Shown piece by piece: positions 12,839 to 33,730 of a stretch of DNA of 45,099 nucleotides. The notes beneath the pieces were generated by a model that saw only the letters and a program-made list of their open reading frames with translations, had not been told where the DNA came from and ran no database searches. How positions within the stretch are numbered: position 1 is the stretch's first letter; each line of letters begins with the position of its first letter. A program made the position numbers and the translations under genes. The DNA is from Heliobacteriaceae bacterium (GTDB lineage: Bacteria; Cyanobacteriota; Vampirovibrionia; Gastranaerophilales; Gastranaerophilaceae): contig JAISCP010000089.1 in the NCBI GenBank assembly GCA_031265495.1, positions 1 through 45,099 of the forward strand. The letters are read 5' to 3'.

Positions 12839-12910
12839 CTAGAAGCCCCCCCCCCCCCCCGAAAGTGCCTCTATTACTGCATTGTAGCCATTTTTAATTG
12901 TTTTATCCAT
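12839..12910 (-). CDS. Leader peptide A with poly-G tract, frame out of phase with the pilin
   Basis: Starting at the second ATG (12910), which is 7-10 bases below the GAAGAAGG site, the leader reads MDKTIKNGYNAVIEALS, then glycines from the G tract, then F and a stop at 12839. The same 17 residues occur at 22446 and 31786. With the 15 G present here the ribosome stops 5 bases after the tract. With 14 G (or 17) the leader would read on as ...GGGGASSCFLQG... straight into pilin-lectin A, with no stop in between. Confidence 0.7.
   Translation of the reverse strand: MDKTIKNGYNAVIEALSGGGGGF
12846..12860 (-). repeat. Poly-G tract, 15 bases (locus A)
   Basis: This is a homopolymer of 15 G on the minus strand inside the leader A coding frame. 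Tracts of this length are prone to slipped-strand mispairing. Leader and pilin are out of frame by one base at this length and would be in frame at 14 or 17. Assembly of homopolymers is error-prone, so the stated length should be treated as approximate. Confidence 0.8.
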
Positions 12911-21012: not shown

Positions 21013-22128
21013 TCAGTTTCTAATCTGCACGGGCATGATTAAACATATTAAATCTTCTTCGCTCTTTGGTCTGAAAACAGTAGCGGACAAAGAAGAATTT
21101 AATCCTATTTTTATTTCTTCGCTGTCTATATTTTTCAAAGCTTCAAGAACATATTTATAATTGAAAGCAATGGTTAATTCCTCGCCGCTGTAATCTATAT
21201 CAAGGCTTTCCTCAGACTTGCCGGAATCGGGAGTATCAGCGGTAAGCCTCAGACTGTTATTTGAAAACTCCATTTTAACAATACTTGTTTTCTCGTTGAC
21301 CATAATCGAAACCCTGTCCAGCGCAGCCGTCATTTGGGAAACATTCACAACAGCCTCTTTCGGGCTGTCTGCCGGAATTAACTGGTTATACTTTGGAAAC
21401 TGACCTTCGAGAAGCCTTGAAATCGTAGTCGTTTTCTCGGATTTTATTATTACTTTCGATTTCTCTTTATAAATTTTCACTGTATCTTCATCTACAAAAG
21501 AAGTCATTTTTATAAATTCGTTAAGAGCTTTAGAAGGAATAATGAGCTGGCTGTTTTTATCATCCTTATTTGAAATGCTTTCGCGGACTCTGGCAAGACG
21601 ATTTCCGTCCGTAGAGGCTATCTCCAGAACTTTGCCGGAAATATCACAAACTATTCCCGACAGAAGATTGCTTGTCTCGTAATTTGCCGCTGCAAAACCC
21701 GCCTGTTTAACAGCCTTAACAAAAGGTTTCAATTCTATTTCAAATCCGTCTTCCGGTTTAACTTCCGTCATGTCCGCAGGGAATTCACTTGCCGCGATTC
21801 CGTAAATATCAAACTTAGAATTCCGGCTTGTAATGCTCACAAGCGTTTGCTCGGCTTCAAAATTAATCAGGTCATTATCACCCAGCTTTGATACTATTTC
21901 ATTAAGTTTTTTTGAAGGAAGCGTTATTTTTCCTTCTTTTTCAACCTGCGCATCAATATTTGTTATAATTGTCATGTCCAAATCAGTTGCGGTAAGTCTT
22001 ACTGTTCCCTTATCAATCGTTTCTATTAAAATATTCAGTAATACAGGCTGTAAGGCTTTCATGCTTGTAGCCCGCTCAACTATTTTAATTCCGTTGTACA
22101 AATCATCTTTTTTAATTACAAATTTCAT
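21013..22128 (-). CDS. dnaN: DNA polymerase III beta subunit (sliding clamp)
   Basis: This 371-residue ring-forming processivity clamp starts MKFVIKKDDLYNGIKIVERATS, shows the LRLTATDLDMTI-type strands repeated in three domains, and ends AVFRPKSEEDLICLIMPVQI, the usual clamp C-terminus. AGGAG lies 7 bases before the ATG. It is transcribed away from a cluster of DnaA-box-like sites (22214-22367). Linkage of dnaN with an origin, without dnaA, recalls some cyanobacteria. Confidence 0.96.
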   Translation of the reverse strand: MKFVIKKDDLYNGIKIVERATSMKALQPVLLNILIETIDKGTVRLTATDLDMTIITNIDAQVEKEGKITLPSKKLNEIVSKLGDNDLINFEAEQTLVSITSRNSKFDIYGIAASEFPADMTEVKPEDGFEIELKPFVKAVKQAGFAAANYETSNLLSGIVCDISGKVLEIASTDGNRLARVRESISNKDDKNSQLIIPSKALNEFIKMTSFVDEDTVKIYKEKSKVIIKSEKTTTISRLLEGQFPKYNQLIPADSPKEAVVNVSQMTAALDRVSIMVNEKTSIVKMEFSNNSLRLTADTPDSGKSEESLDIDYSGEELTIAFNYKYVLEALKNIDSEEIKIGLNSSLSATVFRPKSEEDLICLIMPVQIRN

Positions 22129-22145
22129 CTTCCTACTCCTTGTTT

Positions 22146-22367
22146 TATAATTATTATAATATAAATAAAATAAATAGTAATATATTTAATCATAATAATA
22201 AGCTGTGATTATTTGTAGAAAACGGGGCGTGATTGAATAATAATAATAATTTTGACTGTATAAAAAATTGTAGAAAAGTTTTTACATAAAAGCAACAATT
22301 TGATGAAAGATATTTTTTTTGTAGAAAACTCATGGTTTTTCTACAAAAAGTCATGGGGTTTTCTACA
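22146..22367. other. Candidate chromosomal origin upstream of dnaN
   Basis: Five copies of TTTTCTACA occur within 154 bases: reverse at 22214-22222, 22269-22277 and 22320-22328, forward at 22337-22345 and 22359-22367. The 9-mer differs by one base from the TTTTCCACA form of the DnaA box. An AT-rich stretch (22146-22201) that could be the unwinding element lies beside it. In Synechococcus the origin is next to dnaN, which supports the placement. No replication data are available here. Confidence 0.55.
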
Positions 22368-22382
22368 ATAAATATGTTATAT

Positions 22383-22412
22383 TTGACAATATTTGACCGA
22401 GTGTTGTATAAT
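22383..22412 (+). promoter_or_regulatory. Sigma-70-type promoter of leader B
   Basis: TTGACA (22383-22388) and TATAAT (22407-22412) are 18 bases apart. A strong GAAGGAGG site follows near 22431-22438, matched to the second leader ATG at 22446. Confidence 0.8.
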
Positions 22413-22445
22413 TTTGCTGTGATAATTGAAGAAGGAGGTATGGTT

Positions 22446-22553
22446 ATGGATAAAACAATTAAAAACGGCTACAATGCAGTCATAGAGGCACTTTCTGGGG
22501 GGGGGGGGGGCATTTTAATGGCTCCCTGCAAGGCTTTCCGCCTGCTTCATTAA
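22446..22553 (+). CDS. Leader peptide B with poly-G tract, frame out of phase with the pilin
   Basis: The 35 codons are MDKTIKNGYNAVIEALS, five Gly from the G tract, then ILMAPCKAFRLLH and a stop. The second ATG (22446) is preferred because GGAGG stands 7 bases before it; the first ATG (22440) is too close. The pilin frame differs from the leader frame by the equivalent of one extra G: 15 G (or 12) would give ...GGGGGHFNGSLQGFPPASL... and continue without a stop into pilin-lectin B. Confidence 0.7.
   Translation: MDKTIKNGYNAVIEALSGGGGGILMAPCKAFRLLH
22497..22510 (+). repeat. Poly-G tract, 14 bases (locus B)
   Basis: This is a homopolymer of 14 G within leader B, directly after the codon TCT. 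In-frame fusion to the pilin is predicted at 12 or 15 G; the present length and 13 G both give early stops. Length in an assembly is uncertain. Confidence 0.85.
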
Positions 22554-22612
22554 TTTGTCATTGCGAGAAGCTTGCGCAGCAAGCGACGAAGCAATCCAAA
22601 AAATCAACAGTC

Positions 22613-23611
22613 TTGACATTTGTTCCCCCCTTGAGGGGGAACCGGAATTTACAGAGTAAATTCCGAAGGGGGGCCGCCTTTACTCTGGCAGAGGTATTGA
22701 TAACGCTATCGGTAATCGGTATAGTAGCGGCGTTGACCATGCCGGCATTAATGACAAACTGGCAGGAGAGAGCATTCTCAACTGCAAAAGAAGTATTTGA
22801 CAGACGGCTTCAAGAAGCAACGCGTCAAATGAATATAAACGAAGCGTTAACCGGCTATACCACAACAGAAACATTTGTAGAAGGCCTAAAGAAATATTTA
22901 AAAATATCACAAGTATGTGACACAGACCCGTCGGGCTGTTTTGCGCCTGCAATAACAAACAGTGACGGCAGTGAAACAGTAGAAGCAAAAGACTTAAAGA
23001 ATTCAAGTAATTTAAATGAAGGAAACTGGAACACCAAAGCTTTAGGCATAGGCTTAATTAACGGTTATACGGCAATCCTGAGCTACAATCCTGATTGTCC
23101 GGCATTAGATATATCAGCTACGGGTACCCAAACAACGTCATGTATGAGCTTGGTCTACGATATAAACGGGAAAGCAAAACCGAATAAGTTAGGTAAAGAT
23201 ATATATACATTAAATGCAAACCCATTCAACAACAGTTGCGGAGGAATAAAGATAGGGAGCTTATGTGTATCATCGTCAGATGTGTCATACAGTTCAATAA
23301 ACACTTGTGACGGAACATCCGAGTATGATAAGAGTTGTACAACAGCAAATGGTTGTGGCAGCTCTTATTGTACAAATAACTATTGGGCAGGGGCAAAGAA
23401 AGCCTGTGCAGAACAGGGTATGCACCTTCCGGACAATGACGAACTAAACGCGTTGGTCCCCTACGCTAGCGAGTTGGCAATGTCAGGCTGGTTTTGGTCT
23501 TCTTCAGAGTACACTACAAGCATAAACAACGCATGGGTACAGTTCTTTCCTGGTGGCACTCAGTTCAACCTCACTAAGCACCACAATGACGGCGTTCGGT
23601 GTGTGAGGTGA
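22613..23611 (+). CDS. Pilin-lectin B: prepilin-like protein, principal DGR target
   Basis: The frame is given from the TTG at 22613 (332 residues), but it is open upstream through the G tract to 22463, so the true start may be the leader ATG. The first 22 residues come from a hairpin repeat (CCCCCCTTGAGGGGG...). FTLAEVLITLSVIGIVAAL is the prepilin N-terminus, with cleavage probably at A-F. Then come a helical stalk, a Cys-containing middle (SCMSLVYDINGKAKPNKLG), and a C-terminal DUF1566/C-type lectin-like domain (WAGAKKACAEQGMHLPDNDEL ... GWFWSSSEY ... VRCVR). The last 126 bp are the variable repeat. Such proteins would display a hypervariable tip on a pilin-like fibre or pseudopilus. Confidence 0.88.
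   Translation: MTFVPPLRGNRNLQSKFRRGAAFTLAEVLITLSVIGIVAALTMPALMTNWQERAFSTAKEVFDRRLQEATRQMNINEALTGYTTTETFVEGLKKYLKISQVCDTDPSGCFAPAITNSDGSETVEAKDLKNSSNLNEGNWNTKALGIGLINGYTAILSYNPDCPALDISATGTQTTSCMSLVYDINGKAKPNKLGKDIYTLNANPFNNSCGGIKIGSLCVSSSDVSYSSINTCDGTSEYDKSCTTANGCGSSYCTNNYWAGAKKACAEQGMHLPDNDELNALVPYASELAMSGWFWSSSEYTTSINNAWVQFFPGGTQFNLTKHHNDGVRCVR
23483..23608 (+). repeat. DGR variable repeat of pilin-lectin B
   Basis: 126 bp aligned to the template at 24270-24395 without gaps show 16 differences, and all 16 are at template adenines (to C, T or G). The fully conserved 3' block GTTCGGTGTGTGAGG corresponds to the initiation-of-homing region. Codons affected include AAC to TTC, CTC, CAC and GGC. 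The last codon before the TGA stop is AGG. Confidence 0.95.
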
Positions 23612-23674
23612 TTGTTTATTTAAAAATTCAATTATTTAGCGCCGCTGAAGTCCGCAGCGTGTAACCCGAAAATC

Positions 23675-23768: not shown

Positions 23769-24212
23769 ATGGCAAGACATGAACACTTACCTATATATAA
23801 AACAACTTACGACCTGTTAATCGCGCTTATGCACACCACAAAAAACTTTCCGCGTGAATTTAAATTCACACTCGGCGAAAAAATCCAAAACCACATACTT
23901 GAATTACTGGTGGATATTTACAGAGCAAACAGCGCAAAAGATAAACGTGCCGATATTATTTCGATACTTGAACACGTACAGTACCTGAATTTGTTTATGC
24001 GTATTTCATTTGACCTGAAAATTCTTACAACAGAAAGATACGCGGTATTCATTGAACAAACGGGTTCAATATCCAAACAGGCACAAGGATGGTTAAAAAA
24101 TGCCTTTGATACTACAAACGAGCCGGAGCCTGATTCATGCCAAGGCATAACAGGGAGCGCTCTATTATCACGTCAGCGGCGGTTGGACATAAGTTCAACC
24201 AAAGCCTTATGA
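23769..24212 (+). CDS. avd: DGR accessory protein, Avd-like
   Basis: This 147-residue protein is basic and all-helical: PIYKTTYDLLIALMHTTKNFPREFKFTLGEKIQNHILELLVDIYRANSA (several motifs) is the four-helix-bundle pattern of Avd and related 23S rRNA intervening-sequence proteins, followed by two more helices to about residue 125. Avd forms a pentamer that binds the DGR reverse transcriptase and template RNA and is needed for mutagenic cDNA synthesis. Position between variable and template repeats is the standard DGR order. The last 25 residues (CQGITGSALLSRQRRL...) are not conserved-looking. Confidence 0.9.
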   Translation: MARHEHLPIYKTTYDLLIALMHTTKNFPREFKFTLGEKIQNHILELLVDIYRANSAKDKRADIISILEHVQYLNLFMRISFDLKILTTERYAVFIEQTGSISKQAQGWLKNAFDTTNEPEPDSCQGITGSALLSRQRRLDISSTKAL

Positions 24213-24269: not shown

Positions 24270-24395
24270 TCAGGCTGGTTTTGGTCTTCTTCAGAGTACA
24301 ATACAAACATAAACAACGCATGGGAACAGAACTTTCCTGATGGCAATCAGAACAACAACAATAAGAACAACAATGACAACGTTCGGTGTGTGAGG
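24270..24395 (+). other. DGR template repeat
   Basis: This 126-bp non-coding template starts 57 bases after avd. Forty-six of its bases are adenine, mostly in AAC and AAT triplets in the target frame (translated it would read ...NTNINNAWEQNFPDGNQNNNNK...). It is identical to the variable repeat of pilin-lectin B except at 16 of these adenines. The 3' block GTTCGGTGTGTGAGG is shared; beyond it the template continues AGATAATAG. A reverse transcriptase should copy its transcript with random changes at A. Confidence 0.95.
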
Positions 24396-24415
24396 AGATA
24401 ATAGTCAAAGGCAGG

Positions 24416-31613: not shown

Positions 31614-31722
31614 CAGTTAGAATACATTAGTAAATAGTGATTAGTAAATAGTAAATAGGGTTGAAAATACTAGTTTCCAGTCTCTAACCCCCAGCCCCTA
31701 AGTTCCATTGGTATTTTTACAT
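31614..31722. repeat. Repeat sequence before promoter C
   Basis: 'tagtaaatagtaaatagggttgaaaatac' type runs and 'tagtttccagtctctaaccc', a short unit also seen near 16290 and 37260. No gene is seen. Confidence 0.5.
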
Positions 31723-31752
31723 TTGACAATATCTGCCTAAGTGTTGTATAAT
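31723..31752 (+). promoter_or_regulatory. Sigma-70-type promoter of leader C
   Basis: TTGACA (31723-31728) and TATAAT (31747-31752) are 18 bases apart, with the same boxes and downstream sequence as promoters A and B. Ribosome binding site GAAGAAGG follows. Confidence 0.78.
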
Positions 31753-31785
31753 TTTGCTGTGATAATTGAAGAAGAAGGTATGGTT

Positions 31786-31857
31786 ATGGATAAAAAAATT
31801 AAAAACGGCTACAACGCAGTCATAGAGGCACTTTCGGGGGGGGGGGGGGCATTTTAA
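31786..31857 (+). CDS. Leader peptide C with poly-G tract, frame out of phase with the pilin
   Basis: Reads MDKKIKNGYNAVIEALS, four Gly, A, F and a stop at 31857. One residue differs from leaders A and B (K4 for T4). With 13 (or 16) G the frame would be ...GGGGHFNGSLQGFPPASLVCHCEEG... and stay open into pilin-lectin C. The last serine codon is TCG, so this tract needs one G more than locus B (TCT) for the same fusion, which matches the predicted lengths. Confidence 0.7.
   Translation: MDKKIKNGYNAVIEALSGGGGAF
31836..31849 (+). repeat. Poly-G tract, 14 bases (locus C)
   Basis: This is a homopolymer of 14 G within leader C. In-frame fusion is predicted at 13 or 16. Sequence on both sides is nearly identical to locus B for over 200 bases. 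Confidence 0.85.
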
Positions 31858-31948: not shown

Positions 31949-33094
31949 TTGAGATTTGTTCCCCCCTCGAGGGGGAACCGGAATTTACAGAGTAAATTCC
32001 GAAGGGGGGTAGCCTTCACGTTGGCAGAGCAGGCTGAGCCTGCCGCGTTAGTTCGTCATTGCGAGAAGGGCGTCAGCCCGACGAAGCAATCCAAAAAATC
32101 AACAGTCTTGACTGGATTGCTTCGCTCCCGTTGGTCGCTCGCAATGACGCGCCAAGCTTTTACACTGGCAGAGGTATTGATAACACTAACCGTAATCGGA
32201 GTTGTAGCGGCGTTGACCATGCCCGCCCTTATGCAGAATTGGCAGGAGAAAGCATTCTCAACAGCAAAAGAAGTATTTGACAGACGTCTTGAAGAAGCCA
32301 CGCGTCAAATGAATGTGAACGAAGCGTTAACAGGTTACACAACAACAGAAACATTCGTAGATGAACTAAAAAGATATCTAAAAATATCACAAATATGCCC
32401 AAGTGACCCATCCGGCTGTTTTGCTCCGGTAATAACGAACGGTAACGGTAGTGAAACAGTAGAAACAAAGAATTTAAAGAATTCAAGTAATTTAAATGAA
32501 GGGAACTGGGGCACAAAAGCCTTAGGGCTGGGTCTGATAAACGGCTACACGGCAATCCTGAGCTACAATCCTGATTGTCCTGTACCGGATATATCAGCAA
32601 CGGGCGCACAAACAACATCATGTTTGAGTCTTGTCTATGACATAAACGGAAAAGCAAAACCAAACAAGTTAGGTAAAGATGTCTACACATTAAACGCAAA
32701 CCCATTCAACACCTGTATAAAGATAGGGAGTTTATGCGTCTCAGCATCAGATGAGTCATTTATCCCGCTAGATACTTGTGGTAGTTCCCCCTACGACTCT
32801 AGTGGCAGCGGCAGTGTTGCTTGTGCAAATAACCGTTGGGCAGGCGCAAAGAAAGCCTGTGCAGATATAGGTATGCATCTTCCGACAATAGACGAATTAA
32901 GTGCTATGTACCAACATAAAGATGAATTGGGAATGACAAGCTGGTTCTGGTCTTCTACAGCGGGCGAGAGTACAAATAGCTGCGCCTATGCAATGGATTT
33001 TGGTACATCCAACTCTGATTATAATAAGAGTTGCACTGGTAAGGATACCGTCGGCGGTTACGCCAGCACCTTAGCCGCTCGGTGTGTGAGGTGA
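31949..33094 (+). CDS. Pilin-lectin C with duplicated prepilin motif
   Basis: From the TTG at 31949 the frame gives 381 residues and is open upstream through the G tract. It carries two AFTLAE segments 48 codons apart (32012 and 32156): the first is cut short, then an R3-type repeat in frame, then the complete AFTLAEVLITLTVIGVVAAL. An ATG at 32144 directly before the second copy would give a short basic leader (MTRQA) and could free expression from the G tract. Stalk and middle match A and B closely; the lectin-like end is WFWSSTAGESTNSCAYAMDF...LAARCVR, longer and different from A and B. It is probably a DGR target of another template. Confidence 0.82.
   Translation: MRFVPPSRGNRNLQSKFRRGVAFTLAEQAEPAALVRHCEKGVSPTKQSKKSTVLTGLLRSRWSLAMTRQAFTLAEVLITLTVIGVVAALTMPALMQNWQEKAFSTAKEVFDRRLEEATRQMNVNEALTGYTTTETFVDELKRYLKISQICPSDPSGCFAPVITNGNGSETVETKNLKNSSNLNEGNWGTKALGLGLINGYTAILSYNPDCPVPDISATGAQTTSCLSLVYDINGKAKPNKLGKDVYTLNANPFNTCIKIGSLCVSASDESFIPLDTCGSSPYDSSGSGSVACANNRWAGAKKACADIGMHLPTIDELSAMYQHKDELGMTSWFWSSTAGESTNSCAYAMDFGTSNSDYNKSCTGKDTVGGYASTLAARCVR
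32012..32173 (+). repeat. Duplicated AFTLAE coding segment around an interspersed repeat
   Basis: GCCTTCACGTTGGCAGAG (32012-32029) and GCTTTTACACTGGCAGAG (32156-32173) encode the same six residues with four synonymous differences. Between them is a 'gtcattgcgag...gaagcaatcc...ggattgcttcg...cgctcgcaatgac' repeat. The spacing of 144 bases keeps the frame. The synonymous divergence argues for recombination between paralogues, not a fresh target duplication. Confidence 0.7.
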
Positions 33095-33730
33095 TTGTTT
33101 ACATCAGGGATGAGTAAACAGGAAAGAGGGAACAGCAAAGGATTGTCACAGCCCGCCTTAACCGCCCTATTTATTATTAAAATCCATGTAACTAATTTCG
33201 TCATTGCGAGGCGCTTGCACGGCAAGCGACGAAGCAATCCAGAAAATCAACAGTCGTGACTGGATTTTCCTCTCTCAAAACGATAATTAATCGTTTTGCT
33301 CGGCAAGAGTGTCCTCATTACATTCGTCCTCGCAATGACGAAACAGGTATAGAGGGCTGGAGGTATAAAAGAACAATCCCTCCGCGTCATGCTGAACAAC
33401 CTTCCCGTCATCCTGAACTTGTTTCAGGATCTGGTACATGGTAAAATCACACCTTCCTTCCAATTTTATTTTGGCAAATTTATTCGTGGTAATTTATCAT
33501 TGGTCAGATCCTGAAACAAGTTCAGGATGACGCGGAAATTATGGTGTGATTTGTCATGTGCAGATGCTGAAATAGCGGATTTTCGCAAGAGTGAAGGGCA
33601 AAGCCCGAAACTCGTCTAAGTGAGCAGAAACGCGTTTCTGCTCACTGCGAATAATCCAAGACAAATTCAGCATGACAGGGAGGTTAAGGTGGGCTATCCT
33701 TTGCTGTTCCCTCTTTCCTAACCCCTAGTT
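33095..33730. repeat. Intergenic repeat block
   Basis: R3 repeat with 'gtcattgcgaggcgcttgc...gacgaagcaatcc' arms (about 33200-33340), palindromes of 'catcctgaacttgtttcagg' type, and the hairpin element at 33575-33660. No gene is supported. Confidence 0.65.
33575..33660 (+). repeat. 86-bp inserted hairpin element, copy 4
   Basis: Begins GCGGATTTTCGC and ends GCGAATAATCCAAG. Internal arms are GGGCAAAGCCC and GAGCAGAAACGCGTTTCTGCTC. It interrupts 'tgctgaaataaattcagca'. Its sequence is the closest match to the copy at 35981-36060. Confidence 0.7.

Follow-up and report, generated by a model that had tools for sequence, protein, structure and literature searches.

Where does chromosome replication begin in the Gastranaerophilales (Melainabacteria/Vampirovibrionia), uncultured and non-photosynthetic relatives of cyanobacteria? 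The question is raised by an intergenic region beside dnaN in a stretch of 45,099 nucleotides (here called the window), for which a first-pass annotation had proposed a candidate oriC. The window belongs to a 95%-complete assembly of 2,054,806 bases in 153 contigs. The closest named relatives of its dnaN share 69-81% protein identity, and most carry the label Candidatus Gastranaerophilales or Melainabacteria. Four records labelled Heliobacteriaceae, Fusobacterium sp., Clostridia, and Clostridiaceae (L033, L039, L058, and L063) also carry a Gastranaerophilales-like dnaN, at 45-79% identity; on this basis L033, L039, and L063 (79, 72, and 70%) look like mislabelled records. The elements of the region are listed below.

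21013-22128, minus strand: dnaN, DNA polymerase III beta clamp, 371 aa; the protein matches dnaN across the order
22129-22367, no strand: putative oriC core, intergenic, from the dnaN start to the last DnaA box; based on boxes, DUE, and comparison with relatives
22143-22202, no strand: candidate DNA unwinding element (DUE), the least stable 60-mer by nearest-neighbour energy (rank 1 of 45039)
22193-22201, plus strand: three putative DnaA-trios, TAA-TAA-TAA, 5' of box 1; sequence reading, same layout in relatives
22202-22213, plus strand: 12-nt spacer from the trios to box 1; sequence reading
22214-22222, minus strand: putative DnaA box 1 (TTTTCTACA), the box of the basal unwinding system (BUS); exact match
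22257-22265, minus strand: weaker DnaA-box-like site TTTTATACA, with a second TAA run just 5' of it at 22239-22250
22269-22277, minus strand: putative DnaA box 2 (TTTTCTACA); exact match
22320-22328, minus strand: putative DnaA box 3 (TTTTCTACA), left arm of an inverted pair; exact match
22337-22345, plus strand: putative DnaA box 4 (TTTTCTACA), right arm of the inverted pair, separated from box 3 by the 8-bp spacer CTCATGGT
22359-22367, plus strand: putative DnaA box 5 (TTTTCTACA); exact match

Outward from dnaN, the order is thus the unstable 60-mer, the TAA trios, the 12-nt spacer, box 1, the weaker box, box 2, the inverted pair, and box 5. The five exact 9-mers within 154 bases lie where the first-pass annotation had placed them and are the only copies of TTTTCTACA in the window; shuffled sequences contained 0.84 copies on average and 3 at most, and 0 of 100 reached 5. 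In the whole assembly TTTTCTACA occurs 24 times, versus 47 times for the reversed 9-mer, and its distribution is uneven, with 5 of the 24 copies in these 154 bases, the other 19 scattered, and no second cluster of the exact 9-mer among the 24 sites. A box cluster above chance, as expected of a bacterial oriC, is therefore present, with boxes of a shifted consensus. The cyanobacterial DnaA box TTTTCCACA differs from the 9-mer at one base (excerpts of PMC4674748), which bears out the earlier description of the 9-mer as one base from a known box. The assembly has a single DnaA match (459 aa), encoded on a different contig (C20) from dnaN; so far as the contigs permit a judgement, the origin is thus linked to dnaN without dnaA, as had been suggested.

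The cluster also adjoins an AT-rich stretch as well as dnaN, as annotated, and the DUE expected next to a bacterial oriC is represented by the least stable 60-mer of the window. GC content is 15% over 22129-22213. The window has three TAA trios at a spacer of 12 from box 1 and so conforms to the published definition of a BUS (at least three DnaA-trios no more than 16 bp from a box); an additional TAA at 22187-22189 is separated from them by TCA. Under this rule, 20 of the 29 regions with boxes had trios on the 5' side of a box, versus 5.7 expected when boxes were kept and the rest was shuffled, while opposite-facing controls gave 9 regions and wrong-side controls 5 and 7; the remaining 9 of the 29 lacked trios. 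The spacer was 12-14 nt in 17 of the 20 trio-bearing regions. The rule of three was adopted after a stricter one (at least four uninterrupted trios), which found 11 of 31 regions versus 1, 1, and 0 of 31 in controls and rejected box 1 of the window because TCA interrupts its trios. A scan with the rule of three returned the box at 22257, at a spacer of 7, and not box 1, as the best match in the window. Judged against E. coli R1, which we take to be the reference for orientation, box 1 would be oriented as in known systems. The C. difficile sequence given in PMC7561715 points the same way, as far as that excerpt goes. In B. subtilis the orientation of trio-adjacent boxes is reported to matter (PMC6669920, in part), and spacer lengths in basal unwinding systems are reported to peak at 10-13 bp (PMC8287927, in part).

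Conservation was assessed in 52 distinct dnaN-upstream regions of at least 600 bp, the window included, drawn from 58 distinct regions. Within 600 bp upstream of dnaN, at least three exact boxes were present in 22 of the 52 regions, at least two in 29, at least one in 34, and none in 18. Boxes occurred there at 4.23 per kb, 64 times the 0.066 per kb measured across relatives' contigs (2.29 Mb), so that the 9-mer is unevenly distributed among relatives too. The dnaN adjacency that characterizes a cyanobacterial-type oriC is present in the window. The inverted pair, searched as TGTAGAAAA-N5..14-TTTTCTACA, was found in 21 of 116 genomes, once each except for one genome with two, and its reversed control in 0 of 116. 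Spacers in the 22 pairs measured 8 bp in 17, 7 bp in 3, and 10 bp in 2. Eight further genomes yielded the pair in seven, one of them being, by coordinates, a genome already among the 116. In some genomes the pair (22320-22345 here) is a perfect 26-bp palindrome, TGTAGAAAACTCATGAGTTTTCTACA, occurring once per genome.

Where dnaN was located in pair-bearing genomes (n = 13), the pair lay less than 500 bp from the dnaN start in 10, about 5 kb away in 2, and on another contig in 1. The cluster is displaced from dnaN by about 5 kb in G003 and G009, 1.5 kb in G117, 9 kb in G120, and 2 kb in G122, and recA and a MerR-like neighbour lie between cluster and dnaN in G003 and G120. At least 6 of the 18 box-free dnaN-upstream regions belong to genomes with an inverted pair elsewhere (G003, G009, G117, G118, G120, and, on another contig, G005). 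Since the cluster sits farther from dnaN in several genomes, it stands as an independent unit and does not belong to the dnaN promoter.

GC skew, proposed earlier as a check on the origin, was examined in relatives: for 12 stretches of contig, each between 55 and 400 kb long, the best skew change point was compared with the boxes. In 4 of the 12 the switch came no more than 1 kb from the cluster, and in 9 no more than 6 kb from it, which favours an origin at the boxes; the other 3 disagreed. Distances from switch to box were 9 bp in G033 (switch at 131,101, box at 131,092), about 70 bp in G046, 242 bp in G117, and 713 bp in G122, followed by 1.6 kb in G119 and G003, 3.3 kb in G012, 4.7 kb in G008, and 5.1 kb in G009. 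G046, an assembly of three contigs from another family, has a skew of about -0.12 over 262 kb and of about +0.12 over the 100 kb that follow. The sign changes there at 262,801; the densest group of boxes begins at 262,873 and dnaN at 263,115. The switch was not at the boxes in G015, G116, and G120, and G116 is nearly without skew; in these three and in G008 the skew was weak, the contig short, or the switch misplaced. In the window itself the cumulative minimum lies near 16 kb and not at 22 kb, in a stretch of 45 kb that is too short for the purpose and whose skew depends on gene strand. Many cyanobacteria also show weak strand bias (excerpts of PMC4674748). Taken together, the clustering, the conservation, the DUE, the trios, and the skew switch in most of the relatives' stretches strongly support the candidate, and 22129-22367 is very probably the chromosomal replication origin.

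Clusters of DnaA boxes also occur outside the origin in E. coli. A titration or regulatory cluster of the datA/DARS type, with the true origin elsewhere, could in principle be such a case here, and the three discordant skew tests would fit it; we consider this extremely improbable, given the skew switch and the DUE/trio architecture at this very site and the scattering of the 19 other copies, with no second exact-9-mer cluster in the assembly. Alternatively, the 9-mers may be operators of a transcription factor controlling dnaN and the divergent prepilin gene. They do lie in a divergent promoter region, and the near-palindromic box pair, its spacer set at 8 bp in 17 of 22 cases, is the kind of arrangement favoured by dimeric repressors. 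Operators are nevertheless very unlikely: the boxes stay together up to 9 kb from dnaN (G003, G009, and G120), the GC skew switches within 1 kb of them in four contigs, and the most unstable DNA of the window, with trios at 12-14 nt, adjoins them. The single-base difference from the cyanobacterial DnaA box (PMC4674748, in part) argues in the same direction.

If the region is an origin, DnaA, supplied from another contig, would bind the five TTTTCTACA boxes and would be handed from box 1 (22214) onto the single-stranded TAA trios at 22193-22201. DnaA would then open the AT-rich DNA at 22143-22202, in the layout of a basal unwinding system. Helicase loading and assembly of the replisome would come next, with the beta clamp encoded alongside.

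How DnaA recognizes a box of shifted consensus is a further question. The E. coli and cyanobacterial DnaA boxes have C at position 6. Among 148 matches to TT[A/T]TC-N-ACA upstream of dnaN in the 52 regions, N was T in 138, A in 9, G in 1, and C in 0, compared with a background of C at this position in 66 of 700; none of the regions checked had a copy of TTTTCCACA in the 600 bp preceding dnaN. The other C positions of the box were mostly kept (position 5, 138 of 205; position 8, 132 of 141). Boxes with T6 were also found at dnaN in other families of the order and class, namely f2, f3, f4, f6, f8, f10, and f13; f8 and f13 have dnaA and dnaN as neighbours with the boxes in between. One genome of family f9 carries TTATCAACA three times, and in families f11, f12, and f14 no clear box cluster was found near dnaN or dnaA.

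On the protein side, Asp433 of the DNA-reading helix of DnaA is, to our knowledge, near-universal in bacteria. The recognition helix of the DnaA in this assembly reads K-K-H-T-T-M-L-Y, compared with R-D-H-T-T-V-L-H in E. coli, so that KKHTT stands in place of the canonical DHTT signature of domain IV. Asp433 was found in 0 of 29 DnaAs of the class; 20 have Lys at this residue, 2 have Arg, 4 have Thr, and Gln, Asn, and Gly occur once each, making it basic in 22 of 29. Within family f1, two genomes depart from the basic residue, with Thr or Asn in its place. Families f9, f11, and f12 have lost Asp433 with no gain of Lys, and f9 differs within the class in combining Gln or Thr at 433 with A6.

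For comparison, 79 genomes of the phylum were considered, 31 of them from the class itself; of the other 48, 8 were dropped (7 with no match and 1 cut at a contig end), leaving 40. Codons for Asp-His-Thr-Thr-Val lay inside the DnaA domain in 32 of these 40, and the remaining 8 lacked this pattern there. A first signature pattern requiring Arg432 had in-domain matches in just 5 of the 40 non-class genomes, and residue 432 was removed from the pattern for that reason. Seven of the 79 genomes (G128, G147, G154, G164, G165, G167, and G168) gave no match to DnaA domain IV; G165, G167, and G168 are 99% complete, and DnaA may therefore be absent from them.

The losses of Asp433 and C6 co-occur at the level of the class. 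Based on these comparisons, we propose that initiator and box specificity may have shifted clade-wide, with the two losses matched. T, sometimes A, at box position 6 would then be paired with Lys, Arg, or another non-Asp residue at 433 of recognition helix 5. We lean towards the view that the Vampirovibrionia/Melainabacteria class rewired its initiator-origin recognition, C6 giving way to T or A after the split from the photosynthetic Cyanobacteria, in which Asp433 and TTTTCCACA were kept. With confidence only a little better than even, we infer that one change caused or allowed the other. The independent events are few, because they consist of a single deep split and minor variation inside the class (f9, with A6 alongside Gln or Thr). 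Asp433 is, moreover, reported to contact box position 7 and not 6 (excerpts of PMC8235120), and on that evidence the match between residue and base is not direct.

Both the box change and the loss of Asp433 could also be products of unrelated drift in genomes rich in AT, an explanation that would rival the specificity part of our reading while leaving the origin itself unaffected. C to T is the favoured direction in such genomes, the reported contact with position 7 (PMC8235120, in part) loosens the link between the two changes, and f9, f11, and f12 lost Asp with no gain of Lys. Against drift, C5 and C8 are mostly kept where C6 is 0 of 148, and 22 of 29 class DnaAs have a basic residue at 433. 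We regard drift as possible but somewhat doubtful, and a coordinated change in specificity as the preferred reading.

The putative origin resembles several described systems. Cyanobacterial origins (Synechococcus PCC 7942, Anabaena PCC 7120, and Cyanothece ATCC 51142) likewise adjoin dnaN and carry an AT-rich stretch and boxes, TTTTCCACA, one base off those seen here (excerpts of PMC4674748); unlike them, the present system has T instead of C at box position 6 and a DnaA without Asp433. The inverted box pair with an 8-bp spacer, a conserved trait among the relatives compared here, may be a further difference. A DnaA box, a 12-nt spacer, at least three trios, and then unstable DNA are shared with the BUS of Bacillus subtilis and others (PMC8287927, in part); unlike in those systems, no tandem second consensus box lies directly at the spacer, and the function here is a predicted one. 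The origins of epsilonproteobacteria (Helicobacter and Arcobacter) offer a parallel in their clade-specific box consensus and changes in DnaA helix 5, but there position 5 and residues 435 and 438-439 vary and the 433-434 pair is described as highly conserved (excerpts of PMC5043019), whereas here position 6 and residue 433 are affected. No description of a Melainabacteria origin, or of TTTTCTACA as a DnaA box, was found in the literature searched, a search with subscription papers and DoriC mostly outside its scope. A word search of the eLife 2013 Melainabacteria paper (PMC3787301) gave no occurrence of dnaA, dnaN, replication, or GC skew.

The first-pass annotation had further placed the phase-variable locus of a diversity-generating retroelement (DGR) beside the origin. 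The features concerned are these.

22440-23611, plus strand: prepilin-like gene, target of the DGR, containing a poly-G tract; neighbour outside the origin, out of frame at 14 G
23483-23612: variable repeat (VR), the last 130 bp of the prepilin-like gene
23769-24212: Avd-like gene (PF22296), between VR and TR
24270-24399: template repeat (TR)

The Avd-like gene and the VR/TR pair, 130 nt long with 17 of 17 differences at TR adenines, bear this part of the description out, but a search for a reverse transcriptase (PF00078) found none in any part of the assembly, which is 95% complete; the RT of the DGR may be remote, missing, or unusual. With 14 G, the frame at the poly-G tract (22497-22510) yields 37 aa, and with 12 or 15 G it yields 389-390 aa. 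Long poly-G/poly-C tracts lie near three prepilin-like genes, at 22497-22510 (14), 31836-31849 (14), and 12846-12860 (15), suggesting that phase variation adds to the variation produced by the DGR. Over 133 nt, the promoter, start, and poly-G tract of two of these genes (22377-22509 and 31717-31849) match at 93% identity, which implies that a recent duplication or a gene conversion took place next to the origin. An interspersed repeat, TCATTGCGAG...GACGAAGCAATCC, occurs at 22554-22617, 32049-32112, and 33197-33260 and forms part of the coding sequence when the prepilin product is in frame. A survey of 18 related neighbourhoods (17 genomes) found no Avd-like gene close to the cluster, so that the adjacency of the DGR looks like a local accident. 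Nothing suggests selection for its position beside the origin, and a gene-dosage effect on the DGR locus is something we can only infer.

In sum, this analysis provides a location and a box consensus for the probable origin of replication in a major gut lineage that is uncultured, with the inverted DnaA-box pair and its preferred 8-bp spacer as a good origin marker. Knowledge of the origin position would allow growth rates to be estimated from read depth and replicating plasmids to be designed. Furthermore, the combination of one base and one residue may offer a natural example, open to direct testing, in which an essential initiator and the site it binds have changed in concert.
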